DNA from: Agelas oroides
Taxonomy: Eukaryota; Porifera; Demospongiae; Agelasida; Agelasidae
DNA: 64,000 nucleotides
Direction of reading: 5' to 3'
NCBI GenBank assembly: GCA_949130485.1
Contig: OX422189.1
Location: forward strand, 8,314,220 to 8,378,219
Under the pieces are notes generated by a model, which had not been told where the DNA came from, ran no database searches, and saw only the letters and a program-made list of their open reading frames with translations. The position numbers and the translations under genes are program-made. Below are positions 7,094 through 60,077 of the stretch, piece after piece (position 1 is the first letter of the stretch; each line of letters begins with the position of its first letter).

Positions 7094-10000
7094 CTACAAA
7101 CCTAGTACATCTTTAACCTGTTCAGCGAGACTTTTTTGTTCCGAATCATACAGCAATTCTATTAAATTGCCCCAGGTAGCGTCTGGTTTTTGTAACCAAT
7201 GCATAAACATTTCCTGACAGCAGATAAATAGACCATTTCTCTTGTGCGCATTCTCTGCTTCAATCGTTGCAACCTGTTTGCCCTCTGGATCAAGGTCCAT
7301 GAGAAACCCAAAATCCTTCCAGTCTGCAGCGATTGTCTTGATAATCTCCACCTTTCTTCCCTCGGTGGTCTTCAGCCTCATAAGCTGTGCCATAGTGGGC
7401 TTCATATCTGTACAGTTAGGACACAAAATATATAAACAAAACATAATATACCAGGTACATAGTGGCCACATTGTACATACCAGCAATGGAGCCACGTATC
7501 TTAGGAAATGGCAGCTCTTCTGCAACAGTCTGTAAACCTGTGGAAACAAAATTTACATTATGCCAGTAGCTGTACATGCTCTGATACTAAACAGTGAACC
7601 TATCCACATAGACAAATATCGCATCAAATTGTGGGAGATATGCTAATCACTCCCCATTACACAGTCAGATGGCATTATATGCTGAAGAATAATGCCAATG
7701 TGACTGAGACTTGTCCTGCTGCTAATGGTCTGCAAAATTGCTTTTATAACCAGGCGTACTGCAACCAGGCTAATCTTAAGCCAAAGCATCAGTGCATTAT
7801 CCTTGACCTGGTCTGTAGTTTCTTGATTCCTTTTGTGGGAGCATTACAGCATACACCATAGCAAGTGCAAGATGTATTTCAAGCCACATGAAGCAGTACT
7901 ATGACAAAGCAGATAATTTAGCCTTGTTGTCAAGTTTCTGATCAGCTTTTGTCACATTCTGTACGAAAAATTGGGAATGAGGATAGTGCGCTGTAAATGT
8001 AGTTTGATGACCTTGTTTACTGAATATAGCTAGTGTCATGAACAAAACCAAAAGTACTATCAGACACTTAGAGAGTCCTGGCATTGGAATTACATAAATA
8101 CAGTGTGTGATTGCAAATTAACTATGGTAGCAGGATAATGTTAGCTGCCTGAAGTGACATCAAGTGAATACTTTGCATGACAAAGCTGCATGCTCATAGG
8201 ACAGCAGTGATTCTTGTGCTAGCTTTTATAACACAAAACAAAACAAACAAAAAAGGCAGAGGTAGTGCAGCTATATATAAATACTCCCATTGTGTGGATA
8301 GACAGTGAACTTACACATTAGCAAGTATCTAAACGTCTTACCATTCCCTCCACCTGGAAACCAAAATTGTTGTTCCCTTTGTAGGGTACCGAGTGGCTTT
8401 TCTGTTTTGCTGCAAACAATGTAAGAACTATCAGGGCAGATTCTGGCTGCATGGGATGGGGTGCATTCACATGGGCAGAGGAATGCTGGCTCCACTTGTA
8501 TACATTGAAACCTCATTACATCAAAAACTTTATCAACTGCCGCAAAAACGTTTCTGCGAATGTTTAGGCAGAATGTCTTGACATCCTTCTCCTCAACTTT
8601 GTCCATGTTGACATGAATTTCAAGGTGTCGTGTGTAGTTCACCATCGTTATTGTGACAGGAAGCATGGGATCACAGAGTTTGACAATATTGTGTGCAAGA
8701 CATTCTGGTGAAGTCTGTTCTGTTCGACACAGCTTCCAGTTGTAAGCAGAGATAAGACACGATGTGATGTTACCAAAGCAACCATTGGGAACACAGCCAT
8801 TACTGAAATGTATGACTAGTGGGGCTACCTTAGAGGACGAGGGAAGGAATTCCTGAATGGCTTCATCAGGAATGGCTGCAAGTAAGCTCATCATAAGGTA
8901 TTCTCTTTTCTTCATTGTGGATGACTTCTGCCCTGGCCTGCCAGAGTGAGTAGGAGGCTGCTGGTTCTTGGCCAGTGACTCTTCAGTACTAAGTTGGGCT
9001 ATTGTGTATGTATGAAGGAAGAGTTTAATGGCATGCTGGGGTTCATAGATACTGGGAATGAAGCAATCAGACAGCTGAAGACTCTTATCGCACAGCATCT
9101 CTTCTGTAATAATGCCTTCCTTGCAAAAGCGTTCGTATTTAGCCAGTATGGCAGGCAGGCCACCAGACTTCACTTTGTAGCTAAGAGCTACAATTGCATT
9201 GACAAAGTCAAGGGGCACTTGTGGAGACAGAAATACTAGGTTCGGAAGAACATGTTTAAAATAGAGGAAAATATTGTGGCGATGGAAGTAAATCAATGCT
9301 GCCTGAACAACCTCGCTGCCCATTTTCAGCCTTGTCCCAACCTGCACACACTCATCAAAGCTCAAGACCATCAACTGCCTATCTTCCCCTTTCTTCTCCT
9401 TTGCATACAAGATAGCTTCTTGCTCAAACAAGAAAAAAGACGCAGGAATCTCAACCTTTTCTCCTATGTCAGCATCAATCATCTTCTGACGAATCAGTTC
9501 TAAGACTTCTTCATCATGATCATCTGGGTTCAGCAAATTCACTGGAAAGATAATCTCATCACGTGACCGGTAGACAATCAACTCATCTTCCATTGCTGGG
9601 AGAAAGAGATTTTTCAGCTCCTTATTCACAGCTGCTAGGGTTTCGGAAAGCTTATCTTCCACACAGTCTCTGTGGGTGCCAATGATGCTTACCTTGAATT
9701 GCTGGCTTCCTGTGTATGTAAGCCGCTTAGCTTGCAAAGTACAAGCAAGCTGATGTATGACCTGCCTGATGGTAAGTGCAGAAAGAAGAGGTCGCTTGAA
9801 TGCTGTGCCATCCACATAGAGAGCAATGGGAGGGCACTCATCAAGAGATTGGGCAAGATTCACGACAAGCACTGTTATGTTGGAATTGTGGATCAAAGAT
9901 GGCATTATTTCCATAAATTCAGGCTGCCCTCCTGTGTCAATCATATATAGGAGCTCTATGATGAAGGCTTTCTTGGGACCTTTTACCTTTTGCACTAAGC

Positions 10001-10480
10001 TAATCATGGCTTCACTAGCATAGCTCTTCTCTGGTTGGGAATGAACTACAGTGGAGGGGGCAGTGGATGGTGAAGGGATAGCTGTGGTTGCCTGGAAAGG
10101 AGATAGCGCTTCCTCCAAAGAGGCTTGGGCAGGCTGTAGTGCCTCTTCTTCTGTGAAGATCTTAGCTATGGAGGCTACATCAGCCTTAGGCAATCCACCC
10201 TGGAAGAATGGGGCCAAGAACTCAAGGATCTTCTCCGGTGCAAGGAGCTCCAAGGAGTCCATTCGTGCAATACGATGCATGAGTCCACGCAAGGACTTTT
10301 CTGCAATCCCCGTGCTAGTGTACCTACCTGGGGGGTTGGTTCGAAAAATTCTACTAATAAGCCATGTCTTTCCTGATCCTGCAATGCCAACAACTACTGC
10401 AACTGCGTTCCTCTGTTCAAGACTTCCCGATTCCAGAGCTTGGTCTACAATTGTCTGGGCTTTGTCATCACTCATGGTCA
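7094..10480 (-). CDS. Roc-COR GTPase with C-terminal Death domain (locus A, GTPase half)
   Basis: The exons are 10480-8342 (phase 1 in, phase 1 out), 7537-7481 and 7407-7094 (stop). The large exon encodes a Ras-like Roc domain. Its P-loop GIAGSGKTW is at residues about 32-40, the G3 motif DTGGQPEF at 182-189 and the G4-like GTHRDC at 268-273. Between G1 and G3 there is a Pro/Ser/Thr-rich insertion (about 115-150). COR-like sequence follows, with FHRHNIFLYF and LPNLVFLSPQVPLDFV. The last exon is a Death domain (WKDFGFLMDLD, ATWGNLIELL). Roco proteins are GTP-regulated scaffolds, and Death domains recruit adaptors or kinases, so a cytoplasmic signalling role is likely. ATG at 10475 lies just inside the acceptor and could be a start. 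However, phase 1 continues exactly from the Kelch exons upstream, which favours a Kelch-Roco-Death protein. It is close to a duplicate of locus C. Confidence 0.85.
7899..8077 (-). other. Possible alternative last exon with a transmembrane segment (locus A)
   Basis: After an acceptor-like TGCCAG (exon would start at 8077, phase 1), the frame reads LSKCLIVLLVLFMTLAIF, a clear hydrophobic helix. It continues for about 40 more residues to a stop at 7899. Splicing from the Roc-COR exon (phase 1) would give a membrane-anchored form lacking the Death domain. Locus C has a transmembrane exon in the equivalent position. No strong donor is visible, so it would be a terminal exon. Speculative without transcripts. 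Confidence 0.35.
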
Positions 10481-11251: not shown

Positions 11252-14200
11252 CAAACTCCAGTACAGCAGTTATGGCTAGTTTCTGATGATGACGTTTTGC
11301 CCACTCCCACTTTGGACATCCCCCAAAAATGATGACTTGTGTCCGCCCTGGTACCAAACTCAAGGGAGTAGCAGTGTGTCTTAGCCGCATTTGTGCATCT
11401 TCATGAAGGGTGAGCTGAAGAGAGGGAAGAAACTGATTCGATTTGTGTGACATCATTGTTAAAAATTGAAGGGAAAAAAGAAAACATGAGATCCAGCCAG
11501 GATTCCAACCTGGGCTTTTTGAATTCCAGTCAGATGCTCTTACCAACTGAGTCACCTGGAGCTATAGCATTCAAGCAGAGGATAAGTGGTAGGTACAGTT
11601 GATTCTTAGGATGGATGTTGTGTGTCGAGTGGGGGAGCACCAACACCACTAGCACATTGATGTTCATTACGTGAAAAATTCGATACATACATAAAGTGTG
11701 AAGTTAAAACATAATGGGATGTGGGGATGGGGCATTTATGGCTTAAACAGGTATGGCTAAAATGGGTGGGGCATTTATGGCAAAGTGACTTATTGTTGTT
11801 TGGGAGATATGCTCAAAAAAAACCCACTGGTTTTCAGGGGAGTACCCTTTCCGGTCATCGCATGACCACAGGTTTCGGTCCCTTTGAACTGCCGACCTGT
11901 GGCCTACTACAGAAAGGGCGGAACCACTCCCCGCCTAAGGCTTGCTTTGAGTGAGGAGCCCAGCTCTCAGTTGGCATTCACAGAGCTATGAATATTCTAA
12001 TTACTAAGCAAATTGGGGTTGGGGCTCAATGGGTGGAGTTAGTTATCATAACATTAACTAGCGCACCAATGCACTGAGTGTCGTAGACTCATCGTCACAT
12101 CTTGGTGGAGTATATTAATAGTTTGGGTGTGAGACCGTGAGATGCGGTTGACGGGCTTTAAATGGGAGCGTGCTTCTCCTAGTAACGGCGTACTTATCTT
12201 AGTAATGCCATCTTTATGCTTGTTATGGTGTGTGCTTTGCAGTAACGGTACACCTAGGGGTATAGTCGGTTCCGTAAGGCTGAGCTATGGCTAGGGTTGG
12301 GCTAGGGCTGTTTTGTGTTATCTGTGAGGCTCTCTCACATTTGACTTACTACTGTGAAGCTTACTCACATGCAGTTACGGTATGGGTCTGAGGCTCACTC
12401 AAATTAACATTATGAGTGTGAGGCTCTCTCACACTTGACTTACCACTGTGAGACTCACTCGAGAGATGTCCAGGATTGCCATCAAAGGCTTAGTAGTGCC
12501 TTTGATCTCCTTTTGTTCTTTCTTTGTTCTCTAATCCCAACCCTAACCCTAACCCAGCCCCTAACAATGCATTGTTGGCAAACCTGGACATGTATAGAGA
12601 GCTCACTCACAGTTACGCTATGGGTCTGAGGCTCACTCATATTAACACTGCATAGTGAGTACCGAAGTACTGTCTGCTGCATGCAACCAGCTAACTGGGT
12701 ATTAACAGCAGCCACTTTGCATGTGCCATCAGAACTCTGATTGTGAGCCAACCAGAGCATTTTCACTTCCTGAGAATAGCAATACAAGGTATATTTTGCA
12801 TGCCTAAAGTTTCATGTTTAAGGGATTCTATTCACAGAGTAGGAGATGAATGGGAAAAAGGGAAAAAAGTTATTGTGCACATCATAGACAATGTGATCAG
12901 TTGGTTACATTGAAAGATATCAGCATATGTTAAACAATGGTCTAGTTAGAGCATGTAAACCTAGTCGAATCATTGATCACCACTCACCTCCCTCCACCTC
13001 CCAGCATTGACATCCAGGATCCATGCATCACTTAGAGTGTTACCATTCTTATCCTCCACTCCCCCAGAGACCAGCAGTTGGGGGTCATCCTCTCCAAAGT
13101 TGAGGCAGCAGGCTGCATGGGAGTCTCTCCTCACTGGCCAAGGGGCTCCCTCAGGCTTCTCCAGTTTGGTCCACTCCTGAAACAAGTGATACATAAAACG
13201 TGTCACATGATGAGTTCAGTTATTCACTGTTATGCCCATATTGGCTTTGACATGGTATGGCAAAGCGTTTCATTTAATTCACACCCCACCCACGGCACAG
13301 GACGTACTTCAGGCAATACCAGCTGTATTGGGATCAGTTGGATGACCGAGAGATATGGTATTTAGATAACGTCCCACCCATGCATTTGTAGTGTAATGAT
13401 CACATAAGCATTAATCTCTCCAAGCATACCATTGACTCAAAATCCATAAGAAAACAGTCATTGACTCTGTGGTCTTTGTGATGTTGTGGTTGGTTTCCTC
13501 CAAAGAGCACTGCCTGGTGGTCGTTAATGGCAGTGAAGGAGAAGAAATAACAGGGAGGTGGCCTAGGACCAGTGGTTGGAGGGGAAGACCACTTGCCTGC
13601 AAATAATAAAGCTCAGTACAGTGTTAAGTTGTTGTCGTGTTGTTGTTTTGTTAAGTTGATTTAGAAAACAGTCATGTATTGTTGGAGCATCGTATACATG
13701 TAGCATAGGCCCCAGCCTGAATGATATACATGTAGTACTGTTCGCTAAAAGCATGACAAAATCTAACTATATGCATACATATATGGGTGTGTGTGAGGAA
13801 GACATGGCAAAAGGGACTATGGAGTTCAATGGTCAAACGATGTCTGGGAGACCTAAAAATTTAATATCTACACAAGAGACAATTGCTCAGCAAAAACTTG
13901 GCTTCAGACTCACTAGTTCAATAATGTTGAATACATCAAAAAACAAAAGAAACTTGGCTTTTGAACCACACAGATCCCTTCTGCCTTTCTTATTCAGGGA
14001 GATGTGGTTCGTTGATTGCTCAGGCTTTCTCACATATGTGTCACTAGCCTCGTTCAACTGGGCTGGGAATGAGGCTAATGTGTCACATGTGCTGGAAGCT
14101 GTATATTGTCAAGATGGTAACTAGCTTCACAGCACATGCTGGAATGGTCGACCATCTAGCTATACCAATGCACAAAAAATTCATAGCCACATACATCAAG

Positions 14201-15010
14201 GGCAGTGAAAATAAGAGTGCCTTTGGAAAGTGACTAGTATGTACTCACAACAGAGAATGGTTAAACTAAAATGACTAGTGTCATCAATTTCAGTATCTCA
14301 AAGAGTGGTCTAACTTAAAGCTTACTCCAGTCATGGCAAAGGCAATATCTATTGATGATCTCAGGCTGTTTTCAATTAGCAAAAGTCTACCTACTCTGCA
14401 CTTCTACCACCCAACAGACACCCGAATTAGAATAAAACAAATGAGACAATGCTCACATACTTCTTGTGATGTCAAACACGTGGAGTTCATTGCTGAACCC
14501 CCTTCTACTGACGAAGGGATCCTCGATGAAAGTTGCTCCAGGCTGAATGGGACCAGTGGGAATGCCGTAGCCCCCAAATGTAGCCAGCTGGTCTTGAGAG
14601 AAGGAGACCATTCCACACCAAATTTTTCTCATTGGTCCATCAGCCTGGTTCAGAGGTTGTAGCTCCCTCCACTCCAGTGTGGTGGCGTCAAGTCTGTGAA
14701 GGGAGTTGTAATAAGACCTGCCATCATGCCCACCAAACCAATACAATGAATCCAGCAGTGAGGTACAGGCTCCATCACACAGTCCAGGGGGTGGTACTCC
14801 TGTTGTGTGGTGTTTCTCCCATGTCTCCAGGTGGGGGTCAAAGATCTCAACAGTTGATGCTAGCTTATTTCTTCCACTCTCAGAGGAGTCTTGAACAAAG
14901 CCACCCCGGAGGTAACACCTTCCTCCAACTGCAGCAGCACAGTGGGAAAACCTAGGAGGTGGTTCATATACTTTGGTTGGATGGAACGTGGAAGACGAAA
15001 TGAATGCCAT
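11252..15010 (-). CDS. Kelch-repeat propeller, five exons (locus A, Kelch half)
   Basis: The exons are 15011-14461, 13596-13430, 13176-12988, 12769-12671 and 11414-11252, and all phases agree. The first Met (15010) lies one base after the acceptor TATATAG, so a 5' UTR intron is implied. Kelch signatures recur: CYLRGGF, YWFGGHDGRSYYNSLHRLD, ATFGGYGIP, AVLFGGN, LLVSGGVEDKNGNTLSDAW and VIIFGG. Together they are enough for about six blades. Kelch propellers are protein-interaction platforms. The last exon ends in phase 1 (GAGTTTG|GTGAGC), exactly what the Roc-COR exon at 10480 needs. If that splice is not used, the frame runs about 24 residues to a stop, giving a free Kelch protein. A near-copy lies at 43031-38579. 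Confidence 0.85.
11490..11562 (-). pseudogene. tRNA-like sequence (tRNA pseudogene or SINE head)
   Basis: The 73-nt span can be folded as a tRNA. Six of seven acceptor pairs form (GCTCCAG with CTGGATC). The D-arm is ACTCAGTTGGTAAGAGC, and the T-arm CCAGGTTGGAATCCTGG carries a damaged B box. The anticodon loop would read CTGGAAT. It lies in the intron before the last Kelch exon. The duplicate at about 38817-38877 keeps an intact B box (GGTTCGAATCC) but has lost the anticodon arm. It is probably not a working tRNA in either copy. Confidence 0.5.
11605..12655. other. Insertion specific to Kelch copy A (no gene)
   Basis: Comparison with the duplicate at 38.9 kb shows about 1 kb present only in copy A, between AGCAGAGGATAAGTGGTA and the next exon's donor region. 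It contains degenerate tandem units around GTGAGGCTCACTC (about 12325-12650) and a short telomere-like CCCTAACCCTAACCC (about 12539-12555). No terminal inverted repeats or coding frame were recognised. Confidence 0.55.
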
Positions 15011-24272: not shown

Positions 24273-25592
24273 TCAGTAGTGGACATGGATGCGATGGAGT
24301 TGATGAAGGTGAGTTGTTGCTGTGGAAGATATGTCCCTGGAGCCTAGGAGACTAGTTAGAGCTACACTAGGGCATCTGACAGGGAGGCCTTGAATGGTCC
24401 TTAGGATCTTCCGGTGGATGCGTTCCAGCATAAGTGATTCAGTTTTAGATATAGACCATAGTTCACATCCATACAGCATGATGGGAAGAGAGAGTGTGGA
24501 GTAAAGTCTGTGGGAGGTGACAGGATGTAAGCAGCCAAATCTGGAGCCGACTGCATTCAGGGCAAAGAAGGCACTCTGGCCAGCGGCACAACGCTCGGAA
24601 GTCCGAGCCAAGGTGGAGTAGTGAACTGAGCGTAGGATTCCAAGGTGGTGGTGCTCATCAACCTCTTGCAGTTGCTGGCCTGCTAGTAGCCATTGCCTAT
24701 TGGATCTTGCGAGGGCCCTAGAGCGGGGTGATTCACCGAATACAAGGATCACGGATTTGGAGGAGTTCGGTCGGTAGTGCCACTGGGAGGCGTAGTGTGA
24801 GACAATATCTAGCATTGCTTGTAGTTCTTCAGGGGAGCTGGCCACCAGTGCTAGATCGTCAGCGTACATTGGGGCACCGCAGAAGACTTCTCCAATCCTC
24901 GCTCCGAGACCGGAGTGGTCAAGAGTGTTTAAGAGGTCGTCCACAAAGATAGAGTATAGCAATGGGGATAGAATTGCTCCCTGGCGGACACCCTGTAGGA
25001 TTGGGAATGATCTGGAGTGATCGCCACATTGAAGTACAGAGCAAGAGGAGGAGGTGTACCAGTTGTTTAGGATATGCCAGATCCGGGTTGGGATGCCTTT
25101 GCGGTGCAGTTTGACGAACAGTCCTTGGTGCCAGACTGTGTCGAAGGCTTTCTTGACATCTAGCAATGCTACATATGCCTTCTTACCACTTTCCCTGATT
25201 GATTGGATTGCTTCTTGCAGGACAAAGGCGGTGTGGATAGGACTGTAGCCAGAGCGGAAGCCACCCTGTAGTGGATTTAGGGAGAGGGCGGGGGATTGGA
25301 GTTTGGCAAGGAAGACTTTCTGGAAGAGTTTGGAGATGTTAGAGAGGAGGGAAATTCCACAGTAGTTGGATGGATCAGTCTGGTCTTTTTTTGGGTCTTT
25401 AGGTATTGGCGTAATGTAACCGAGTTGGAAGACTGTAGGGATATGGCCAGTGGCGACTATGGCATTGAAGAGATCAGTGAGGAGGTTGCATGCCAGAGGG
25501 CCAGAATGAATGATGTGCTCAGGGTCAATTCCATCTTGGCCGGAGGCCTTGTGAGGTTTAAGGCATTGAATGGCTTCCTTGACTTCATCCAC
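24273..25592 (-). pseudogene. LINE reverse transcriptase domain
   Basis: The 439-residue frame has the reverse transcriptase blocks LKPHKASGQDGI, PIPKDPKK, NYCGISLLSN, GFRSGYSP, ALLDVKKAFDTV, GVRQGAILSPLLYSIFVDDL and the catalytic MYADDLAL. A thumb-like region follows, with HHHLGI and LPIMLYGCELW. It would copy the element's RNA at the nicked target. Upstream coding continues in another frame (about 25.46-25.80 kb), so a frameshift is present. Confidence 0.9.
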
Positions 25593-25876
25593 TGTGATGG
25601 GTATTTCATCCCCTGCTGTAGTATCAAGAAGGGCCAGGTACTCTTCATTGATGGATTGCTGGAAATCAGAGTCGTATGTGCTATGGGGAGAGGGGACACC
25701 GAGTTGTTCGAAGTAGGAGGTCCATCCCTCGAGGAGGGCATCTCCTTGAAAGGTGGTGCCATTAAATGAGATGACTCGGGGGGGTTCAGGTGAGTGGCCA
25801 TTGATGTTCCTGATTTCTCTAAAGAGTTTACGGGAATCTGTATTGGCCAGGTCTAATTTTGAGAAGAAAAGTTCCC

Positions 25877-29165: not shown

Positions 29166-29428
29166 ACACGACAGTAACTGTTGAGCTCAGAAATTTTGAA
29201 AATTGTACTCCACTATGCATGAATTAGTCATACTTCTAACCCTAGCCCTGAAATTCAATGAGAACTACATTTTCCTGTATATTTGCAGTTGCCAGCAGGC
29301 TAGGGAAGAGACTGCATGCATTGTATAAACGCCTCGTGCTATTAATCCCAAATTACACTCAAAACCATGCCATTAACTATACTTATAGCAGCTTGTGCAA
29401 GCATTTTTGATCAAATTCAAGGTAATTA

Positions 29429-38578: not shown

Positions 38579-41500
38579 CAAACTCCAGTACAGCAGTTAT
38601 GGCTAGTTTCTGTTGATAATTTTTTGTCCACTCCCACTTCGGACATCCCCCAAACATGATGACTTGTGTCCGCCCTGGTACCAAACTCAAGGGAGTAGCA
38701 GTGTGTCTTAGCCGCATTTGTGCAGCTTCATGAAGGGCGATCTGAAGAGAGTGAAGAAACTGATTTGATTTGTGTGACATCATTGTTGAAAATTGAAGGA
38801 AAAAACAACAACATGAGATCTAGCCAGGATTCGAACCTGGGCATTCTGAATTCTTACCAACTGAGCCACTGGAGCTATAGCATTGAAGCAGAGGATAAGT
38901 GGTATACATCCATAGTACAGTTTGATTCTCTGGCTGGATCTCTTGTAGGCCTTGATTCTGCTTAGTAAGTACTGAAGTACTGTCTGCTGCATGCAACCAG
39001 CTAACTGGGTATTAACAGCAGCCACTTTGCATGTGCCATCAGAACTCTGATTGTGGGCCAACCAGAACATTTTTCCTTCCTGAGAATAGCTATACAAAAT
39101 ATTTTTTGCCTGCCTAAGATTTGCATGTTTAATTTGCAGAGTAGGAGATGAAGGGGAAAAAGGGGGGAAGTTAATGTACACATGATAGACTATGTGATCA
39201 GTTGGTTACATTGAGAGATTTAAACAATGGTCTATATAGTTAGAGTGTGCAGACAGACTCAAGTAGTCGAATCATTGATCACCACTCACCTCCCTCCACC
39301 TCCCAGAGTTGACATCCAGGATCCATGCATCACTTAGAGTGTTACCATTCTTATCCCCCACTCCCCCAGAGACCAGCAGCTGGGGGTCCTCCTCTCCAAA
39401 GTTGAGGCAGCAGGCTGCATGGGAGTCTCTCGCTGCTGGCCAAGGAGCTCCCTCAGGCTTCTCCAGTTTGGTCCACTTCTGACAGATAAAAATTGTCACA
39501 TGATGAGTTCTTGTAATGACAGTTGTTGATTGTAATGCCCATGTTATTTAGATAACTTTGTCCCACCCATTCATTTATAGCGTAATGATCACATATTTAT
39601 ATGGCATTAATCTCTTTGAGCATACCATTGACTCAAAATCCATAAGAAAACAGTCATTGACTCTGTAATTTCTGCGATGTTGTCTGCGTCTTTGTTGGGC
39701 TCCTCCAAAGAGCACTGCCTGGTGGTCGTTAATGGCAGTGTAGGAAAAGAAATAACAGGGAGGTGGCCTAGGGCCAGTGGTAGGAGGAGAGGACCATTTG
39801 CCTGCAAATAGTAAAGTTCAGTCTGAAAACCAAGTACAGTGTTGTTGTTTTGTTGTTTTTGTTGATTTGATTTAGAAAACAAGTCATGTATTGTTGGAGC
39901 ATCCCATACACGCAGCATAGTGAGTGATGTACATGTAGAACTGTTGCATAAAAGCATGACAAAATCTAAGTACCGTACTCCGTCTAAAATATTGGACATT
40001 CTAATTATTCGGACACCTCAAATATGATTTCTTTTCATCGCTCTAATCAAACCCGGCAGCAGACAAAATTGAGGGATTTCCCCTCTCTAATCCACTCAGA
40101 CACACGCGAGGTCGAAATTTTTTGCCGATAGTCAAACGAAGTTCTGCAGAGTGAATCAAGGAATAGAGAAGGCTCTACAAAGTTATTTTGAGCCTGGGTA
40201 TGTTATTCTGGAGATTACAGAAAACACTTACATGCTGCATGTTGTGTGTACCGGCTACCGTCCTTGGCTTTTGCAAGGCGCAGCACCCAAACTGTCTTGA
40301 TATTTAAAACGCTCATGGGCCGCAGAACCTTCCTAGTTAGTGTTATATTTCTGCTTGGAGGCGTTGTGAAGAAATCAGTCACTTTTACGATCGAAGCGAT
40401 TGACAGTGATCCAGGCCTCGTTCACTATGCTTCACCCCGTGAGTCCGATGGTGATGCTCAGCAACTTAGTCTGTTCATGGACACTGACAGTAGCCCCGGC
40501 ATGCACAAAGATAGTGGCAGTAAATGTACATGGTAACTCGTAACAAAAGCATGGCTGATAACTCACAAAAAGGGCGACGAAACTGGCACTAAAACCCCCT
40601 CTAATTCACACCAGACACTTCTGCTATAACTCTCCAAAAATTTCGGTACACTCCAATTGTGAATTTTTTTTGCTGTCTGCTATTTTAGAGAGACACGGTA
40701 TAGCTATATACGTGTGTGTGTGTGTGTGTTAGGAAGACATGGCAAAAGGGAACTAGGAGTACAATGGTCAAACGATGTCAGGGTGACCTAAAAATGTAAT
40801 AGCTATACAAGAATGCTCAGCAAAAACTTGTCTTTCAGACTCACTAGTTCTAAAGTGTTGAATATATAACAAGAGACGTGGCACATAGGTCCCATCTGCC
40901 TTTTTTTTTCAGGGAGATGTGTAGCCTCGTTCCCAGGCTCCTGTGCGTGGGCGGAGGAAAAAGAGCCTAGTACACACTGTTTGCACATGCTCAGTTCCCC
41001 CAGGATTTCTGGAAATCTGGGTAAAATCTGCTCCGTTCCACAACCTCCGCGAGACACGCTGACTTCTCCCCGTATAAAAGATGCCTGCTACAGACCACGC
41101 TCTGTGTGGACGATGAGGAGGGAGCGACGAAGGTATTCAGCTCTTCGCTTGCGATCGTCCATTCCAGTTAAACGCTGCGGCACGTGACTGACGCAATCTT
41201 TCCCTCTGAAGTTTACAGATCGTCTCGATCGAAGCAATGCAGAACGTTAACATCAAAGCAATATTGGTTTTGCCTTCAAAACAGCCCGTATGTGTCCCAC
41301 AGGGAGTATAACCATGCAGTGCGGGCTTTCAGGAGGTAAACAGAAATTGACTGTAATTTTAGTGTAGCGGAGTATGCAGGTTACCAAGGGAACTTAGCGC
41401 ATGCGCAAACAGTGTGTACCAGGCTCTCTTTCCTCCTCCCCCGCACAAGAGCCTGGGAATGAGGCTAGCAGATGTGGTTCAGCGATTGCTCAGGCTTTCT

Positions 41501-43030
41501 TACATGTGTCACTAGCCTCATTCCCAGGCCAACTGGGCTGGGAATGAGGATAATGTGTCACATGTGCTGGATTGTCAAGATGGCAACTAGCTTCACAGCA
41601 CATGGTGGAGTGGTTGACCATCTAGTTATATCAATGCACAAAAAATTCATAGCCATGTACATCAAGGGCAGTTAAACTAAGAGTGCCTTTGGAAGGTGAC
41701 TATAGTATGTGATACTGTATAGTTGGTAATTTTCGCGAGGGATTTATTTTCGCGTTTTTCGCGAGTCAAGAAGCCATTCGCGAAAATTAAAACCGCAAAA
41801 TGTTTGTTGACCACGTGCAAAGCGATTGAACCATGTTTCAATCCGGCCTACTTCAAACTATCTAGCCGTTCTATAAACTCCAACGAAAGCCCGTCACAGA
41901 ATGTGCCTTTGACGGCTATCGCTCAAGCCATCCAGGAAATCAAAGTGCTACGTAAGCACAGATGCACGAACCGGACAGCGGAGCAAGGCCGGGAGCGGAA
42001 GCAATCGTTTCTACAAACGTCTTGGGTACGAGGCTACTTTTCTCGTCACACTGGAACAAAGAGCTGAGATTGCCATCTCTCTCTGTAAGCAATTCTAAAC
42101 ATTTGCTCAGCTTTTAGCTGTACTGCTAGCTAACCAGCGGATCCCAGATTCACCGACTGCGAAAATTTCTAAAACCCGAATTTTGGCCTGTTGCGCAAAA
42201 ATTTGTACCCGCGAAAATTATCAACTATACGGTACATGCCAGAGAATGACTAAAATGACTAGTGTCATCAATTTCAGTATCTCAACCCTCTTGACTTTTA
42301 CTCAAAGGGTGATCCCACTTAAAGCTTACTCCAGTCATGACAGAGGCAATACCAAGACTATTTTATTGATGATCCCAAGCTGTTTTCGATTAGCAAAGGT
42401 CTATAGTACCTACCTGCACTTCTACCACCCCACACAAACACCCGGATTAGAATAAAACAAATGAGACTATGCACACATACTTCTTGTGATGTCAAAGATG
42501 TGAAGTTCATTGCTCAAACCCCTCCCACTAATGAAGGGATCCTCGATAAAAGTTGCTCCAGGCTGAATGGGACCTTTGGGAATGCAATAGCCCCCAAATG
42601 TAGCCAGCTGGTCTTGAGAGAAGGAGACCATTCCACACCAAATCTTTCTCATTGGTCCATCAGCCTGGTTCAGAGGTTGTAGCTCCCTCCACTCCAGTGT
42701 GGTGGTGTCAAGTCTATGAAGGGAATTGTAATAAGACCTGCCATCGTACCCACCAAACCAGTACAAGGAATCCAACAGTGAGGTGCAGGCTCCATGGACC
42801 AGTCCAGGAGGTGGCACTCCTGTTGTGTGGTGCTTCTCCCATGTCTCCAGGTAGGGGTCAAAGATGTCAATAGTTGATGTTAGCTTTCTTCTGTCACTCT
42901 CAGAGAAGTCCGGAACAGAGCCACCCCAGAGGTAGCACCTTCCCCTAACTGGAGCAGCACCATGGGAAAACTTGGGAGTTGGCTCATATTGTTTTGTTGT
43001 ATAGAATGTGGAAGACTGAATGGATGCCAT
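38579..43030 (-). CDS. Kelch-repeat propeller, five exons (locus B, Kelch half)
   Basis: This is a duplicate of the locus A Kelch block. The exons are 43031-42481, 39801-39626, 39478-39290, 39079-38981 and 38741-38579, with the same phases. Motifs match blade for blade (CYLWGGS, YWFGGYDGRSYYNSLHRLD, ATFGGYCIP, AVLFGGA, LLVSGGVGDKNGNTLSDAW, VIMFGG). The first Met (43030) again lies one base after the acceptor. No stop or frameshift interrupts it, so it is probably functional. Several introns contain transposons absent from copy A. Its exit phase (1) suits the linker exon at 37341. Confidence 0.85.
39973..40698. mobile_element. DNA transposon remnant, TA target site, in a Kelch B intron
   Basis: The ends CCGTACTCCGTCTAAAATA and the inverse of CCGTGTCTCTCTAAAATAG are flanked by TA. 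The matching intron of copy A (about 13757) lacks it. There is a short plus-strand frame at 40246-40536 of no recognised family. Probably non-autonomous. Confidence 0.7.
40922..41469. mobile_element. TAGCCTCG-family element, about 9-bp target duplication
   Basis: The ends TAGCCTCGTTCCCAGGCTC and GAGCCTGGGAATGAGGCTA are inverse copies. GGAGATGTG on the left and GCAGATGTG on the right flank them, and copy A has the single site GGAGATGTGG at about 14000. This gives an independent example of the roughly 9-bp duplication made by this family. The body is about 550 bp and non-coding. Confidence 0.8.
41715..42232. mobile_element. MITE, TA target site, in a Kelch B intron
   Basis: The termini CTGTATAGTTGGTAATTTTC and the inverse of CCGTATAGTTGATAATTTTC lie between TA dinucleotides. 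Inside each end are further CGCGAAAAT-type repeats. It is absent from the matching place in copy A (about 14238). Confidence 0.8.
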
Positions 43031-44445: not shown

Positions 44446-45720
44446 GAATGAATGAATGAAATATTTTATTAGAGTGACACGCGAGATGCCCGGCCTGATT
44501 AGGCCTATGAGTCACTACAAACGGGTACAAAATAATGGTTAAGTATACAGATATTACAGATTTAAAAGCTGGATTCTAGTTTTATACAAGTTATACAAAT
44601 GTTTCCCAATTATTCTACAATGATTATTTGCACTAAGGATGTACTTAAATTTATCAATAAGGGTAAGGGAGGTAAAAGAGTTATCTAAGTCGGATAGGCA
44701 ACTGAAAAAGGTAGAACGTAAATGATCTAAAGCTGGACACAACATAACAAAATGAAATTCAGTTTCAACAGTGTCTGATGAACACAATCTGCAGGTCCGG
44801 AGGTGGTATGGTGTTTTTGGTGCCCTATATCGGCCTGTCTCAATGTGAAGTGGGAGACAACCCCCTCGTAGGGCAGCCATGACCCACCGGTGACCCCTGC
44901 ACAGAATACCACTAATGTAGCACTCTGGCCTAGGTTGTTGTTTTATAACTCTATAGTTATGTAGCCTACCCCCTGAGTCTGTACAGTAGGTGTTATGGTC
45001 CCAGATTCGCATTCTCCATTTGTGGTTTGCTTTATCAGTTAATTTAGTGATGACTATGGTTTGAAATTCCTTAGGAGACAAGCTAGTTACATTATTTGGA
45101 TTTAAGTGTCCTAGGTTGATCTAAGTGAGCAATTTATTTGCATGAAAACACCAGGTAGGTTTGCCCTTATTGGCTAGTTCTAGTGACCATTTAAAAATCT
45201 TTTTAGTAAGACGACTATCGTCCATAGTAGCAAGACGGAACCAGAGTTTGAGCATCTCAAACTGGTGTCTACTCCAGACTGGCATCCATCCTGAGTCACC
45301 TTCTAGTAGATCTACTGGGCAGTTTTTACCCACACCCAAAATATGTCTAATTGCCTTGTTCTGAATGGTTTGTAACTTGGGGAAGGTTCTGTAACCCCAG
45401 ACACCAGCCCCATAGTCCATTCTAGATATTACTAGTGAGTCATAAAGTGAGCTGAATGCTTCAAAGGGAAAATTACCAAATTGTTTTGATTTAGCTATAA
45501 GAAGGCCCAAAGCTTTTCTGGCAGATTCACTAAGTGCATTAACACAGTTTTGGTAGTCTAAGTGTTCATCAAGCCAAACACCAAGGTATTTATATGAAGG
45601 CACAACTTCTAATTCTGAGGGGCCACATTTAAAATTGAACGAGGTCCTAGGCTGGGATTTATGTCTAAAATGGCCAATTTTTGTTTTGCTGGTGTTAATG
45701 TGAAGTCGCCAGGATTCACA
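44446..45720 (-). pseudogene. 5'-truncated LINE fragment (3' part of reverse transcriptase polyprotein)
   Basis: Frame 45603-45121 has YKYLGVWLDEHLDY and ISRMDYGAGVWGYRTFPKLQ, the thumb/connector region that follows a LINE reverse transcriptase. Frame 45081-44554 continues with the Cys-His knuckle CRLCSSDTVETEFHFVMLCP. The element ends in an (ATTC)n tail at about 44458-44446. The catalytic reverse transcriptase is absent, and a frame break separates the two parts. It belongs to a different family from the LINE at 21-27 kb. Confidence 0.85.
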
Positions 45721-45762
45721 CCAGGTGTTAGCTAAGTGTGGGGCTCGCTCAGGCTCGCCCCA

Positions 45763-48200
45763 ATTATTCTCACTTTATCTAAGGGCATCTCTAATGAGGC
45801 GTCTCCCAAAAGACATCTCCACAAAAATTTCAATAGGCAAAGTTTATTACCACATGCAAAACACACCCATGAAGCATTTTCACAAACACCAATGGCTAAC
45901 TATAGTGATCACAAAACACTCCTAATGTTGACAGTAAACAACCCTACTTGGGAACAAATGATCCCAAATAAGGCATCTGGCATGGCTCTGGAGGAAGTCA
46001 TAACATGCAAAGATATCCATAACAAATAAAACTAAATCATACAAACTTAGTATTTGCACTATCTCTTCTGACTATGCTTGGGTCTTGGTAAAATTTTACA
46101 CATGCACAGACCAGGAATGTGGACTAATTTCTTGTTTCTGGTAGCTTAGGAGTGTGAATTTCACAACCTGTACCATGCTCCCTTCCATAATCTGGTTTCC
46201 AAACAGATCTCGATGCACCAGTGTCAGCATCCTGTTAGTCTTGCACCCAGCCGGATTGAATCACAATACAGTGGAACTCCTCTATAACGGACACCATTTG
46301 GGAACCAACATTTTTTCCCTTATAGCAAGGTGCCCCTAACTTAGGGGCTTCCGGTATATTTCTGGTAGGTGTGGTACTGTGTAACGGGGCTGTTCAGCAC
46401 AAAGTGGCTGCATTTTCAGAGCTTTCCTTTGCTGTACGCTGGTGGGGAAGGGTATTTGTACTATGAGTAACAGTGCTAATCTAATGTCAAGTTTAACTCC
46501 AGCAGCGATGGTTGACGATCTTGCTGAAAAGCTTGACGGGTGTCTGCTAAATCGGGGTCATTAAGTATTAATAGTGTACAATTGGGACTGCAAAAACTCT
46601 CCATTATACGGAGTAGCGGGATGTCCGCTATTCAGGGGTTGCTTATATATTGAAGTGAATGGAAGGACAGTCCGAACTTTCAGAATTGTCCGCTATATCG
46701 TGGGTGTCCGTTGTTGAGGGGTATCTGTTAAGTGGGTTCCACTGTAGTTCATGTGGTACAACAAACTTCAGTTGTGTTCAAAATTTTCTGTATTCCAAGG
46801 TCTTAAAGAACATAATTATGGTCAAGAAATGTCACCTGGGATTAATAGTACTTGAAGGACCAAGCATGCTACAAATGTGTTATTATTTTGCCAAGCATAC
46901 CAAGGATTGGTAATTGTGAAATAATGTAGAGTAAGTGTAGTGAGACTTGGTAGTTGCATTGTGTTGTTGGCCCATATGTAATGTCAAATGCATGTCACAA
47001 TTTTGGTCCCCAGAAGCCCCCTAAGGTACATGATCTCCATCGTTACTGAACACATGATGAGCAAGTGATTGAGTGAGCTTGGGTTTATGGTTTCGATGGC
47101 ACTACTGAACAAGCGAGTGAACTCAGCTAGAGCATCCATGCAGCTTGACGTAAATTGCTCAGCAGTTCTTGGACTGTAGCTACAAAAGGAAAGCTGCATC
47201 AATAATGGCTTTCTGTAAAGACCATTCGACAACAATTACTGTTCAAGGACTGTCAGGTATTGCATTCTGCATGCCACTGAGTGTCTGCCCCAAGTGACAA
47301 TATGTAGTGGCAAGGCACTTGCTTGTGTACAAGGCTTTCTACATGTATGTACACTAGTTAAACTTGTTCACCTACCCAACCATAACCCATAATCTGGCTG
47401 CTAAATGGTCATACCTACAGTGTGGCAATGGCCAGGCTGGTGTATGGCTTTTATATCTCATAACATGCTTGATCTGTCAGGTATGATTAATTCTGGCATT
47501 GTATCTGTTGTTCATGGACTGTACTCAACAATTACTATGCACACTATGAGCTCAAGGTCAGGCATCATTCATGATAATTCTGGGTCCACTTAGACTGTAC
47601 CCCCAAGCCAACTTTTGGTGACCAAAATTGGCCTCAGGAGGGCCATTTTCGGCATTGTGGGTCCATAGATAAATAGAAGCATAGTAGGGATTGGAAACGC
47701 GTATGCAATGTATTGTGTGGCGTCATTTCCCCTTACAATCCGGGTTGCTCCCGTTGCGCAATGCATTGGTTGGTGTAACGTATCTTGACTGATCAACATC
47801 TGAACTTAATGATTTGTGGTTTATGTGTAGTGTATCAATTAGATTTTCATTTATGCATACTACTCAATGCTGAACTACCTTATTTGTACTTCAGCTACAT
47901 GCTGCTTATCTGTGAATGTGTATCTTTCTACATGGTGGTTTGTATCACTCTATAGCCTGTCTTCCCATGTTTTCATTGTCACCTTTATATTTCCTGGGCA
48001 TCTCACAGCTTTCTGTCTCTTGTGGTATAGCCCAAGCCATACCTCCATTATGTGGTCTGTTTTGTATATAAGTTGCTTTCTGAACAGACTCTCTTGCCGT
48101 TGCTTGCACCTAATAATAATGTTTACTGTTTGAACCGAATGGTGAGTTGACTTGTGAGCCACGCTACAGTTGGAAGGAGTACAATTTTGATACAGTACAC
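45763..48200. other. Upstream region of Kelch B (no gene recognised)
   Basis: This aligns with 17.1-19.65 kb upstream of Kelch A, including the GGCCTCAGGAGGGCCA block at about 47630 (copy A at about 19625; a third copy at about 50810). It holds the MITE at 46269-46744. No exon is convincing. Confidence 0.5.
46269..46744. mobile_element. pogo/Tigger-like MITE, TA target site
   Basis: The ends are CAGTGGAACTCCTCTATAAC and the inverse of CAGTGGAACCCACTTAACAG, flanked by TA (46267-46268 and 46745-46746). Internal GGACACC motifs follow each end. The start CAGTGGAACC is characteristic of pogo/Tigger-type elements. Copy A has the empty site (ACAATAGTTC) at about 17825. Confidence 0.85.
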
Positions 48201-54009: not shown

Positions 54010-55368
54010 TTACAATTCTTTTGAAGGAATTTTGTGCAAATCCTTGCTTCCATTGTGTTCTGACAGTGCGCTGTCCATCTTATTTGCAAGAACATGTAAA
54101 TCTGTGTCTCGCAAGCATTCGATCAATGTCTGCCATGTAATGGGCATTCTTCCTCTTTCTTGTAACCACTGCTCTAGAATTTCAACTGTAATATCGACTG
54201 GATCGCCATGTTTCATTTCAATGATGCGTACTTTGCTTCCATCATTGTCCTTCAGAAGTTGTGTTCCAAAGAGTTTGTAATCTGTTGCAATCTTCTTTGC
54301 AATGTCAATGAAACTGCCCTTCACAGGAAAATGACGCAGGACATGAAGGGTGGGATGACTCTCTGCAGATTTACAAGAGGAAACATATCCAGTAGGGAAT
54401 GAAACATGAACAGAACAGTTTTGTCTGGGAAGTGACATACCACGGTTGAATTGTGATTCACGGCCAGATGGGCGCAGTTGATCTGAAAGTAAAACAAATT
54501 ACATATAATAAAAACTAATTGCAAGGCCAGAGGAAGTAACTGACATCAATATGGTACATTATTTTAGTTAGTGCACTTGTCATGTAAATTAATATCTTGC
54601 TCACCGTCAAGCCTGGGGAAAATGGTAGTATTACAGCTTGGTTACTTTCAGACAATAATACCTTGTGCAGACAATAGTATATTAAATTTTAGGCAGTGGG
54701 TAAAAACCAGGTGAAGCCATGTCTTGCTACTCCTTCGGGCTTCCAGCTGGTAAAGCCTTTTAGCTAAAGGTAAAGTACTACTTTATGAAAATGTAAGTCT
54801 ACGCTTCAACAACAACATACGTTGACAGGTAGGTGCACTCCCAGACCAACTGCCTGTAGCTTGACATGTGCGAGTACTGCCTCCCACCAAGGTGTAGCCT
54901 GGATCACAACTGTAGGTGGCTGTCTCTCCGAATGTTGTTCCAGCAGTGTGACTAACCTGGCCATTGGCTGGGTTGGTCAGAGCACCACAGTCCAAAACTG
55001 CCATAAGAAAGAATACATGTATTGTGTCACTGGATACCATTCAACTGAAGATGAAATGAACATGTACCCCATGTACATGCATGAAACTAAAACAAACAAA
55101 CTATATTAACCCAAATATAATAACCTGTGTACATGCATATTTAGGTCCTTGTATACTCCCAAATTTGGGAATTTTGTGTGTATATTCTTGTATTTGCACT
55201 GTGCATAATAGACAGGTATGTCACATATGATTATAGATACTCACTACTCAAATATAAGGTACTACTTACCCAAACTGACTAGCAACCATATTCCACTGTT
55301 AGTTGCAAGCAACACCAGCAGCACAAGTATGGCAATAAAGATACTACCTGTTTTCTTCCAGTTGTGAC
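54010..55368 (-). CDS. Transmembrane, Sushi and Death-domain exons (locus C, C-terminal part)
   Basis: Three exons join in phase 1: 55368-55270, 54997-54821 and 54482-54010 (stop). The first encodes HNWKKTGSIFIAILVLLVLL, a transmembrane helix preceded by two lysines. The second is one complete Sushi/CCP domain (LDCGALTNPANGQVSHTAGT ... GYTLVGGSTRTCQATGSW ... APTC, four Cys). The third is a Death domain (GSFIDIAKKIATDYKLFGTQ, EILEQWLQERGRMPITWQTL). The phases also match the Ig exons upstream, so one transcript with the GTPase is possible. As drawn, Sushi and Death lie on the same side of the membrane, which is odd; skipping of either phase-symmetric exon would resolve it. A possible 8-base exon at 54605-54612 was not used because it breaks the frame. 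Confidence 0.75.
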
Positions 55369-57938: not shown

Positions 57939-60077
57939 CAATTCCTCCATCCTGAAACCAAACTTGTTGTTTCCTTTGTATGGAACCGAGTAGTTTTCCT
58001 GTTTTGCTGCAAACAATGTAAGAACTGTCAGGGCAGATTCTGGCTGCATGGGATGGGCTGCATTCACATGGGCAGAGGAATGCTGGCTCCACTTGTACAC
58101 GTTGAAACCTCATTACATCAAAAACCTTATGAACTGCAACAAAAATTTTTCTGCGAATGTTTAGGCAGAATGTCTTGACATCCTTCTCCTCAACTTTGTC
58201 CATGTTGACATGGATTTCAAGGTGTCGTGTATAGTTCACCATCGTTATTGTGACAGGAAATATGGGATCACAGAGTTTGACAATATTGTGTGCAAGACAT
58301 TCTGGTGAAGTCTGTTCTGTTCGACACAGCTTCCAGTTGTAAACAGAGATAAGACATGATGTGATGTTACAAAAGCAACCATTGGGAACACAGCCATTAC
58401 TGAAGTGTATGACTAGTGGGGCTGCCTTGGAGGATGAGGGAAGTAATTCCTGAATGTCTTTCTCAGGAACAGCTGCAAGTAAGCTCATCATAAGGTATTC
58501 TTTTTTCCTCATTGTGGATGACTTCTGCCCTAGCCTGCCAGAGTGAGTAGGAGGCTGCTGGTTCTTGGCCAGTGACTCTTCAGTACTAAGTTGGGCTATT
58601 GTGTACATGCGCAGGAAGAGTTTAATGGCATCCTGGGGTTCATATATACTGGTAATGAAGCAATGAGACAGCTGCAGACCCTTATCGCACAGCATCTCTT
58701 CTGTAATAATGCCTTCCTTGCAAAAGCGTTCGTATTTAGCCAGTACTGCAGGCAGGCCACCAGACTTCACTTTGTAGCTAAGAGCTACAATTGCATTGAC
58801 AAAGTCAAGGGGCACTTGTGGAGACAGAAATACTAGGTTCGGAAGAACATGTTTAAAATAGAGGAAAATATTGTGGCGATGGAAGTAAATCAATGCTGCC
58901 TGAACAACCTCGCTGCTCATTTTCAGCCTTGTCCCAACCTGCACACACTCATCAAAGCTCAAGACCATCAACTGCCTACCTTCCTCTTTCTTCTCCTTTG
59001 CATACAAGATAGCTTCTTGTTCAAACAAGAAAAAAGACGCAGGAATCTCAACCTTTTCTCCTATGTCAGCATCAATGATTTTCTGACGAATTAGTTCCAA
59101 GACCTCTTCGTCATGATCGTCTGGGTTCAGCAAATTCACTGGAAAGATGATCTCATCACATGAGCGGTAGACAATCAACTCATTCTCCATTGCAGGAACA
59201 AAAAGACTTTTCAGTTCCTTATTCACAGCTGCTAAGGTTTCAGAAAGTTTATCCTTCACACAGTCTCGGTGGGTGCCAATGATGCTTACCTTGGATTGCT
59301 GGCTTCCTGTGTATGTAAGCCTCTTAGCTTGCAAAGTGCAAGCAAGCTGATGAATGACCTGCCTGTTAGTAAGTGCAGAAGGAAGGGGTCGCTTGAACGC
59401 TGTGCCATCCTCATAGAAAGCAATGAGAGGGTACTCATCAAGAGATTGGGCAAGATTCATGACAAGCACAGTTAGATTGGAATTGTGGATCAAAGATGGC
59501 ATTGTTTCCATAAATTCGGGCTGCCCTCCTGTGTCAATCATATATAGGAGCTCTATGATGAGGGCTTTCTTGGGACCTTTTACCTTTTGCACTAAGCTGA
59601 TCATGGCTTCACTAGCATAGCTCTTCTCTGGTAGAAAATGAGCTGCAGTGGAAGGGGCAGTGGATGGTGAAGGGATAGCTGTGGTTGGCTGCGAATGAGA
59701 GAGCGCTTCCTCTGAAGAGGCTTGGGCAGGCTCTAGTGCCTCTTCTTCTGTGAAGATCTTAGCTAGGGAAGTTACATCAGCCTTAGGCAACCCACCCTGG
59801 AAGAATGGGGCCAAGAACTCAAGGATCTTCTCCGGTGCAAGGAGCTCCAAGGAATCCATCCGTGCAATACGATGCATGAGTCCACGCAAGGACTTTTCTG
59901 CAATCCCCGTGCTAGTGTACCTACCTGGGGGGTTGGTTCGAAAAATTCTACTAATAAGCCATGTCTTTCCTGATCCTGCAATGCCAACAACTACTGCAAC
60001 TGTGTTCCTCTGTTCAAGACTTCCCGATTCTAGAGCTTGGTCTACAATTGTCTGGGCTTTGTCATCACTCATGGTCA
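57939..60077 (-). CDS. Roc-COR GTPase exon (locus C)
   Basis: This is one 2139-bp exon, the same length as in locus A and alignable without any net gap. It carries GIAGSGKTW (residues about 32-40), the Pro/Ser/Thr-rich insertion, DTGGQPEF (182-189), GTHRDC (268-273) and the COR-like FHRHNIFLYFKHVLPNLVFL. It enters in phase 1 and leaves in phase 1 through IG|GTACGA, a weaker donor than the GTAAGA of locus A. If the donor is missed, the frame reads about 78 residues into the intron to a stop. The next acceptor in phase is the first Ig exon at 57586. No Kelch exons are seen upstream within the window, so the start is either ATG at 60072 after a 5' UTR exon, or lies in exons to the right. Role as for locus A. 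Confidence 0.85.

Follow-up and report, generated by a model that had tools for sequence, protein, structure and literature searches.

Three neighbouring Roco GTPase genes in the sponge Agelas oroides with phase-1 exon modules that appear to be exchanged between genes

Overall layout of the three genes

The window analysed here, a stretch of 64,000 nucleotides from the genome of the sponge Agelas oroides (C7:8314220-8378219), carries three neighbouring genes, A, B and C, in which a GTPase of the Roco class appears to be joined to differing sets of domains by exons that move between genes. All three lie on the minus strand. Their splice sites were selected by homology and consensus and the exons were spliced in silico, and each spliced model forms one frame whose sole stop is its final codon. 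Model A has 6 exons and encodes 1173 amino acids (aa) in the order Kelch-GTPase-Death, model B has 10 exons and 1515 aa in the order Kelch-linker-GTPase-ZU5-UPA-Death, and model C has 10 exons and, counted from the GTPase, 1403 aa, with five immunoglobulin (Ig) domains, a transmembrane (TM) segment and a Sushi domain between GTPase and Death. The first exonic base of GTPase C is 60077, and the stop codon of Death A closes at 7094. An earlier note on this DNA had read a different middle in each gene (none in A, ZU5-UPA in B, Ig5-TM-Sushi in C), and the open spliced models bear this out. Together with a search of the genome (259 Mb, 141 contigs), the models suggest a family layout consisting of an N-terminal platform, here Kelch, a single-exon Roc-COR, an optional middle (none, ZU5-UPA or Ig-TM) and a C-terminal Death exon.

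A divergent Roc-COR GTPase in a single exon

The GTPase exons occupy positions 8342-10480 in gene A, 32434-34554 in gene B and 57939-60077 in gene C. Each has an AG acceptor and a GT donor, both in phase 1, and the exons of A and C are 90% identical in protein sequence. Genome-wide, the family occupies at least 57 distinct places including A and C (57 of 205 first-look candidates were scored), and a second genome search, read manually, gave 16 further places beyond these. Most copies are a single open frame of ~670-830 aa; a few are partial or contain stops. All six B-type GTPases, window B included, are followed by a same-strand ZU5 exon 531-1033 bp downstream.

As Pfam alone is weak for Roc and COR, profile-profile comparison was required. 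Among 29 family members, Pfam finds Roc in 16 and COR-A in 7 at E<=0.01, with a best COR-A value of 2.8e-8. Compared with PDB, the family profile has LRRK2 Roc or Roc-COR chains as its top five matches (E 0.0019-0.0041), with Rab GTPases next, and hhalign aligns it to a canonical leucine-rich repeat (LRR) Roco protein of the same genome with 96.6% probability (E 5e-10) over 313 columns that run from G3 via G4 into COR. Within the 29-member alignment, the D and GGQ of G3 and the T and D of G4 are invariant and the P-loop residues are at least 90% conserved; gene B has TFAD at G4. The family is colinear with LRRK2 and, from G3 onward, with the LRR-Roco. These motifs are what we take to be the P-loop, a DxGGQ-type G3 and a THxD-type G4. 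On account of the Pfam family matches, the LRRK2 ranking in PDB and the LRR-Roco alignment, we file the GTPase as a divergent Roco; judged by homology, it is a Roc-COR with a long insert between the P-loop and DxGGQ.

Matches of the GTPase to AAA, NB-ARC and nSTAND P-loops are weak and below cut-off. Neither NACHT nor LRR occurs among the Pfam matches of the window exons, family members and spliced pieces, and no protein kinase or ankyrin match was found in the window exons or spliced pieces tested. In the four pairs tested, the GTPase exon has a ratio of nonsynonymous to synonymous divergence (dN/dS) of 0.18-0.33, which indicates purifying selection and is as expected for working genes. The family had been described as fast-evolving; that description does not suit the GTPase exons, and it is the combination of modules that changes.

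Kelch propeller and linker

Upstream of the GTPase in A and B lies a Kelch propeller encoded by four exons, K1, which carries the ATG, K2, K2b and K3. In gene A, K1 spans 14461-15010 (Pfam Kelch_KLHDC2), K2 13430-13596 (tblastn to locus L039), K2b 12988-13176 (tblastn, 74% to L043) and K3 11252-11414 (homology). In gene B, the corresponding positions are 42481-43030 for K1 (Pfam, 68.7 bits), 39626-39801 for K2 (tblastn homology), and 39290-39478 and 38579-38741 for K2b and K3 (both homology), and the exons of both genes are part of the spliced models. When the block of gene A is spliced, Pfam scores the propeller at 158 bits, compared to 72.9 for K1 alone. Upstream of gene C, just outside the window, K1, K2, K2b and K3 are again found (L041), read as frames without splice sites. 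In gene B, a linker exon of 46 aa (37204-37341, phase 1-1), with homologues in L039, L040 and L043, connects Kelch to GTPase. The linker has 8 genomic copies, all on C7, and in 7 of the 8 it is flanked on the same strand by a Kelch K1 on one side and by a GTPase exon (three copies) or a ZU5 exon (four copies) on the other, at most ~25 kb from K1.

The Kelch module also leads elsewhere. At L039 the block runs into a coiled coil-ZU5-UPA, and at L043 (2509-3867) a homologous linker connects it to a single exon that encodes both a coiled coil and a protein kinase (Pkinase, 108 bits), a further output for the Kelch module.

These alternative partners, together with the wide spacing of the 73 Kelch matches in the genome, all but about six of which lie, by eye, >30 kb from the GTPase exons listed, would fit a different account, in which Kelch genes, Roco-Death genes and an Ig-TM receptor gene are separate neighbours that were joined by eye; the GTPase exons of A and C could then begin at their own ATG. 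This account is opposed by K3, which in A, B, L039 and L040 contains no stop and ends in a phase-1 donor, by the homologous linker that follows K3 and precedes a GTPase, a coiled coil-ZU5 or a coiled coil-kinase, and by the distance between K3 and the GTPase exon of gene A, only 771 bp. Linker order is the strongest test that Kelch and GTPase form one gene, and its constancy in 7 of 8 copies makes it unlikely that Kelch is an unrelated neighbour. We therefore consider separate genes an improbable explanation, and read Kelch and GTPase as parts of the same gene.

Middle modules of genes B and C

The middle of gene B comprises a ZU5 exon (31139-31713) and two conserved exons in the place expected of UPA (30908-31057 and 30671-30845), which are named from position and order; neither the first UPA frame nor the spliced B piece gives a Pfam match to UPA. 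The ZU5 exon is identified through homology, as exons 38-51% identical to it pass the Pfam cut-off with up to 48.6 bits (C8:3151229), and genome-wide at least 106 places (106 of 122 candidates listed) carry a ZU5, all over that cut-off. A comparison of the ZU5 profile with PDB returns ankyrin-1 as its sole match, at E 1.7. In an alignment of six ZU5 sequences, FS is invariant, as part of HFS in two and of QFS in four, including gene B. We take HFS to be the FIIND autoproteolysis site, and the QFS of gene B presumably sits at the FIIND cleavage position. Downstream of Death, minisatellite-like repeats are present in three B-type genes, at window 29426-29898 (minus strand), L047 about 2076-2300 and L048 about 1969-2290, so that the 3' flank seems to have been copied along with them.

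In gene C, five I-set Ig exons (57586-57308, 57152-56874, 56716-56438, 56282-56004 and 55846-55559) are followed by a TM exon of 99 nt (55270-55368), a Sushi exon (54821-54997) and a pre-Death exon (54441-54482), the weakest of the exon calls, all taken from the spliced model. Ig and Sushi are both clear in Pfam, with 74.1 bits for one Ig exon and 60.8 bits for Sushi. We considered whether the Ig domains are of the cytosolic MALT1 kind and rejected this, as the top PDB matches are titin, myosin-binding protein C and Robo/DSCAM, with no MALT1 in the best 60 of 184. A related arrangement, GTPase-Ig6-TM-Death, is found at L032/L042, where the Ig exons are 56-63% and the Death exon 58% identical to those of gene C and the GTPases 29%. 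By homology, an Ig-TM-Death cassette is thus placed behind two unlike GTPase switches.

With TM and Sushi exons between GTPase and Death, no single membrane topology puts every part of gene C on its proper side. The conflict would be solved by alternative transcripts of gene C that skip or re-lead the Ig-TM exons, and it is possible, at somewhat less than even odds, that the Ig-TM-Death exons of C and L032 belong to an overlapping or alternative transcript encoding a surface Ig receptor, which would share its Death exon with an intracellular GTPase protein. Consistent with such a transcript, a TM segment stands between Ig and Death in both genes, the Ig, TM and Sushi exons of gene C are 1-1 and hence skippable, and the L032 TM is followed by KESK, as in a type I protein, which needs the Ig outside and conflicts with a cytosolic GTPase in the same chain. 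Weak start candidates also occur between GTPase and Ig1, in the form of overlapping ATG frames with a hydrophobic stretch in C and a short one in L032. However, by eye none of these resembles a genuine signal-peptide exon that ends in a good phase-1 donor, and the KK that precedes the TM of gene C indicates the opposite orientation. Separately, upstream of GTPase C, at window position about 61431 on the minus strand, an ATG is followed by a strongly hydrophobic, signal-peptide-like stretch that may be chance.

C-terminal Death exons

The Death exons are at 7094-7407 in gene A, 29984-30294 in gene B and 54010-54362 in gene C. That of gene A passes the Pfam cut-off of 22.6 with 27.6 bits. Among the exons of five relatives, L035 (36.2) and L046 (28.1) pass, L045 (21.9) and L011 (20.9) fall just under, and the C-terminal exon of L036, of a class also carried by L025, L030 and L034, has no Pfam Death match. 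Genome-wide there are 870 first-look Death candidates, and the 150 that were scored are all above the cut-off. In L015, L016 and L022, GTPase and Death lie within one open frame. Locus L045 has, about 1.6 kb past its B-type Death, a second Death-like frame at 3187-3516, which corresponds to the Pfam Death match C15:1980561 (57 bits). At L027 the Death position, ~0.9 kb downstream of the GTPase exon, is occupied by a 106-aa stretch that by eye is CARD-like; Pfam gave nothing for it, and we dropped this assignment.

Exon phases at module borders

A central claim of the earlier note was that all module borders it could read are in phase 1, and the spliced models agree with it. Phase 1 is found at the K3 exit (A, B), at both ends of the linker (B) and of the GTPase exon (A, B, C), at the entry and exit of ZU5-UPA, and at the Death entry; in gene C it is found at both ends of each of the five Ig exons and of the TM, Sushi and pre-Death exons. 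Inside the modules, the K1/K2 intron is in phase 1, K2/K2b and K2b/K3 are in phase 0, and so are ZU5/UPA1 and UPA1/UPA2; the statement therefore applies to the borders between modules and not to every intron. Across the genome, the best-scoring GTPase acceptor is in phase 1 in 30 of 31 rows and in phase 0 in one, a 32nd row giving none, and the best-scoring donor is in phase 1 in 27 of 27 (of the 32 rows, 3 were fused and unscored and 2 gave none); because the rows are related by ancestry, these counts describe a conserved 1-1 exon and not independent events.

Separate histories of GTPase, Death and Kelch exons

To compare the two ends of the genes we used 20 loci, namely A, B and C of the window, L040, and 16 of the 30 loci L009-L038, in which L009 is gene C and L010 is gene A. 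Twelve loci (L012, L018, L019, L022, L023, L024, L026, L027, L029, L031, L037 and L038) were left out for a flank without a Death exon, a partial or other exon, or duplication, and the Death sequences of L017, L030 and L034 were cut short. Over the 190 pairs, GTPase and Death identity correlate at 0.47. Of 31 pairs with GTPase identity of at least 60%, 8 have C-terminal exons that are 61-100% identical and 23 have C-terminal exons below 40%, the latter not being independent events.

The discordance runs in both directions. The GTPase is kept and the Death is unlike (percent identity, GTPase/Death) in A-C (90/31), L034-L035 (97/29), L032-L033 (87/24) and B-L040 (74/28), while the Death is kept and the GTPase is unlike in L040-L035 (28/74), C-L032 (29/58) and L025-L036 (38/73). 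Since both exons have similar identities in co-inherited pairs (L013-L014, 92/94; L020-L021, 98/100; L030-L034, 92/91; L015-L016, 79/71), Death does not simply evolve much faster than the GTPase. Within the window, the idea that the three loci share their Death ends does not stand, as the Death exons of A and C are 31% identical and that of B is 23-24% identical to either; the B GTPase, too, is 25-29% identical to that of C. The nearest relative of the B GTPase among the matches listed (90%, C7:6774471) has a different Death (26%), and a 68% relative on C15 keeps the B-type Death (73%).

Approximately unbiased (AU) tests give the same picture. On the Death tree, GTPase sisters are rejected as sisters for A+C (p 0.023), B+L040 (5e-9), L032+L033 (6e-4), L034+L035 (2e-70) and B+L046 (5e-5), and on the GTPase tree, a quick tree without mixture, Death sisters are rejected for L040+L035 (p 5e-4) and for C+L032 and L025+L036 (both <1e-40), the pairs having been chosen after their identities were known. 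The Death tree is partly resolved, with 6 of 20 inner branches starred and several long end branches.

Breakpoints are visible in the DNA. L034 and L035 share 95% of their DNA up to a point in the intron 405 bp beyond the GTPase donor, after which nothing further aligns, and L032 and L033 are 90% identical up to 7 nt past the donor. Between A and C, 93.7% identity covers the exon plus flanks of about 25 and 60 bp (window 60102-57880 and 10510-8283). The synonymous divergence (dS) of this exon is only 0.13, which makes it unlikely that purifying selection alone lies behind a similarity so nearly confined to the exon. Pairs at dS 0.04, 0.13 and 0.33 retain the GTPase exon while the C-terminal exon differs. 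Upstream, alignment of the Kelch blocks of A and B (15268-10875 and 43251-38191) yields six pieces of 80-86% identity that take in introns, and alignment of those of C and A yields four pieces at 79-84%; for K1, dS is 0.26 between A and B and 0.48 between A and C. With a Kelch block nearer to B, a GTPase that is nearly that of C, and a Death 23-31% identical to theirs, gene A is a mosaic, B-like in its Kelch block and C-like in its GTPase exon.

The discordant Death exons might instead be tandem, mutually exclusive exons of which one was seen per gene. For most paralogues, ~0.7-1.6 kb downstream was examined, so further Death exons could be missed, and L045 has its second Death-like frame 1.6 kb on. 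Against this, tblastn with four Death queries found one Death exon each at A, B and C in the window, and L034 and L030 remain alignable through the Death-like exon, whereas the similarity of L034 and L035 stops in the intron. We regard tandem exons as unlikely and favour exchange. These comparisons strongly support a separate history for each of the GTPase, Death, Ig-TM-Death and Kelch modules. The interchangeable symmetric phase-1 exons proposed earlier were a possibility given by the phases, and pair identities, AU rejections and breakpoints now carry modular assembly beyond that.

Other features of the window and flanks

Just downstream of gene A, at 949-5827 on the minus strand, lies a gene with UBA_4 (56 bits) and Thioredoxin_7 (40.6 bits) matches, presumably UBXN7-like; inside it, at about 1235-1700, is a long simple repeat whose frames read Arg-Gly on one strand and Pro-Ser/Leu-Ser on the opposite one. 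Between B and A, a retroelement of the long interspersed nuclear element (LINE) type occupies 24273-27178 (minus strand), with endonuclease and reverse transcriptase frames (RVT_1, 109 bits). Two adjoining frames at 44554-45774 (minus strand) look retroelement-like by eye and have no Pfam match at E<=0.001; frames 35468-36786 and 28591-29001 likewise have no Pfam match. Downstream of the L032 Roco gene, at L042 3742-4827, is a frame with YqaJ (67.2 bits) and viral alkaline exonuclease (39.5 bits) matches.

Discussion

We assign a probability of roughly 0.6 to the reading that A, B and C belong to a large family of germline Roco GTPase genes whose phase-1 modules recombine through introns, and that the proteins are GTP-gated switches feeding Death assembly. 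The gene models, phases, Roco homology and exon exchange can be read from the sequence itself, and the evidence for exchange is strong; a GTP-gated switch for Death assembly is the most likely inferred function. In such a switch, the propeller or Ig domains would bind a ligand or partner, and binding would alter the GTP state and the COR-mediated pairing of Roc-COR. The Death domains, drawn together, could then nucleate a Death-fold assembly with cell death, an NF-kB-type or an immune response as output. A swap of the Death exon would rewire the output, and a swap of Kelch, Ig or ZU5 the input or control. In the B class, ZU5-UPA could conceivably add FIIND-like cleavage or autoinhibition, to which the QFS of gene B, in place of HFS, lends little weight.

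A number of observations weigh against this reading, among them the membrane topology of gene C and the non-independence of the discordant pairs. Several domain scores are low: Pfam Roc reaches E 0.003-0.004 in A and C and COR-A 2e-5 in B, all below cut-off; GTPase B is backed by the family profile comparison. Death scores are 21.4 bits in C and 16.5 in B, where the 73%-identical relative L045 is also short of the cut-off, and in the L036 class, of which the L036 exon has no Pfam Death match, the exon is Death by eye. For ZU5, gene B (15.7) and L047 (17.9) do not reach the cut-off of 21, and the five closest B-type copies are not among the listed places that pass it. The domain search of spliced proteins that had been suggested as a check gave a mixed result, with the Kelch propeller of A clearly recovered, and in the B piece from GTPase to Death COR-A alone reaching E 0.05, which ZU5 and Death did not. 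An AlphaFold model from an alignment of the three window GTPases was unusable (predicted local distance difference test score, pLDDT, 35; predicted template modelling score, pTM, 0.27). As to splicing, mechanical choice of the best-scoring site in the window gives phase 1 at 26 of 43 sites, a set that counts one Ig exon twice and also covers K1 start codons and the phase-0 introns inside modules; the Death A acceptor we used is outside its two top-scoring candidates; and mechanical Death acceptors are in phase 1 in 10 cases, phase 0 in 3, phase 2 in 2 and absent in 6 (n=21; the 22nd, L011, was not located). An in-frame ATG near the start of GTPase exons A and C, absent in L011, would permit a start without Kelch. 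Finally, A and C share a single 133-bp stretch (73%) shortly downstream of the exon, and the Death of A adjoins the C clade on the Death tree (92/92) on a long branch, which makes A-C the least certain Death swap, with the weakest rejection.

As no feature here ties the genes to microbes, and Kelch, Ig and Sushi occur widely as domains of adhesion or scaffolding, the proteins may serve allorecognition, cell adhesion or housekeeping scaffolding in place of microbial sensing. A coupling of Roco (AP-GTPase) proteins to death and conflict signalling has been described, including DAPK and bacteria (PMC8195603), which speaks for sensing. The size of the repertoire and the turnover of its modules are consistent with recognition of either sort. 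We judge the non-sensing roles a substantial but minority possibility. More broadly, and just short of an even bet, we suggest a germline combinatorial receptor system in which large pools of exons for Kelch, Roco, ZU5-UPA, Ig-TM and Death, made compatible by their phase-1 borders, continue to recombine through introns, possibly reaching the Kelch-kinase genes. If so, sisters 87-97% identical in the switch would already differ in their output domain, and the family would be an intron-mediated counterpart of the diversification of NOD-like receptor (NLR) repertoires, built on a Ras-like GTPase.

The animal Roco architectures closest in kind are those of DAPK1/MFHAS1 type, which have the Roc-COR GTPase; DAPK1 also ends in Death, and DAPK has an N-terminal kinase and ankyrin repeats. 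Genes A-C, in contrast, are without kinase, ankyrin or LRR and have Kelch in front, and their ~700-aa GTPase is contained in one 1-1 exon, with the long P-loop-DxGGQ insert and dozens of copies. PIDD1, UNC5 and ankyrin are ZU5-UPA-Death proteins, and gene B has the same domain order and an FS at the FIIND cleavage-like site; unlike them, it fuses ZU5-UPA-Death behind Kelch and a Roco GTPase; it has QFS, and cleavage is putative.

Several systems in the literature resemble the family in part. DAPK is named as an AP-GTPase homologue, and AP-GTPase conflict systems likewise combine a presumed sensor, placed in front, with a Roc-COR switch and C-terminal outputs that vary; the bacterial ones have LRRs in front and effector enzymes behind, where we find Kelch and Death (PMC8195603). 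The ROCO family of brown algae is expanded and shows exon shuffling, and its members are proposed immune receptors; there the LRR-ROC-COR layout stays constant and the shuffled units are single LRR exons in phase 2 (PMC11378527), whereas here whole unlike domains are exchanged between genes, in phase 1 and without an LRR match. NLR repertoires, including those of sponges, share a large, partly clustered family with a nucleotide switch and Death, a functional resemblance only (PMC12909245), as the A-C family has no NACHT and no LRR and its GTPase is of the Ras-like class. Roco is fused to immune adaptor domains in the ROCO-TIR and ROCO-MyD88-like proteins of the invertebrate Aplysia, with TIR and LRR as partners and 0 occurrences of ZU5 in the available text (PMC9334734). 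Sponge Kelch-motif and Death-domain genes respond to microbial patterns in a study whose available text has none of the present architectures (PMC6208332). In agreement with the earlier note, which knew of no such combination, no description of Kelch-Roco, Roco-ZU5 or Roco-Ig-TM-Death genes was found among the matches listed in the open-access literature, a scope outside which most subscription papers fall.

Phase-1 exon shuffling is the textbook origin of animal multidomain proteins; recent intracellular cases with visible breakpoints are, to our knowledge, seldom seen. Because pairs here retain the GTPase exon while their C-terminal exons differ, and gene A is itself a mosaic, the mechanism, rate and selective value of exon swapping are directly testable in this Death-domain family, which suggests that Roco GTPases can fill an NLR-like repertoire role.

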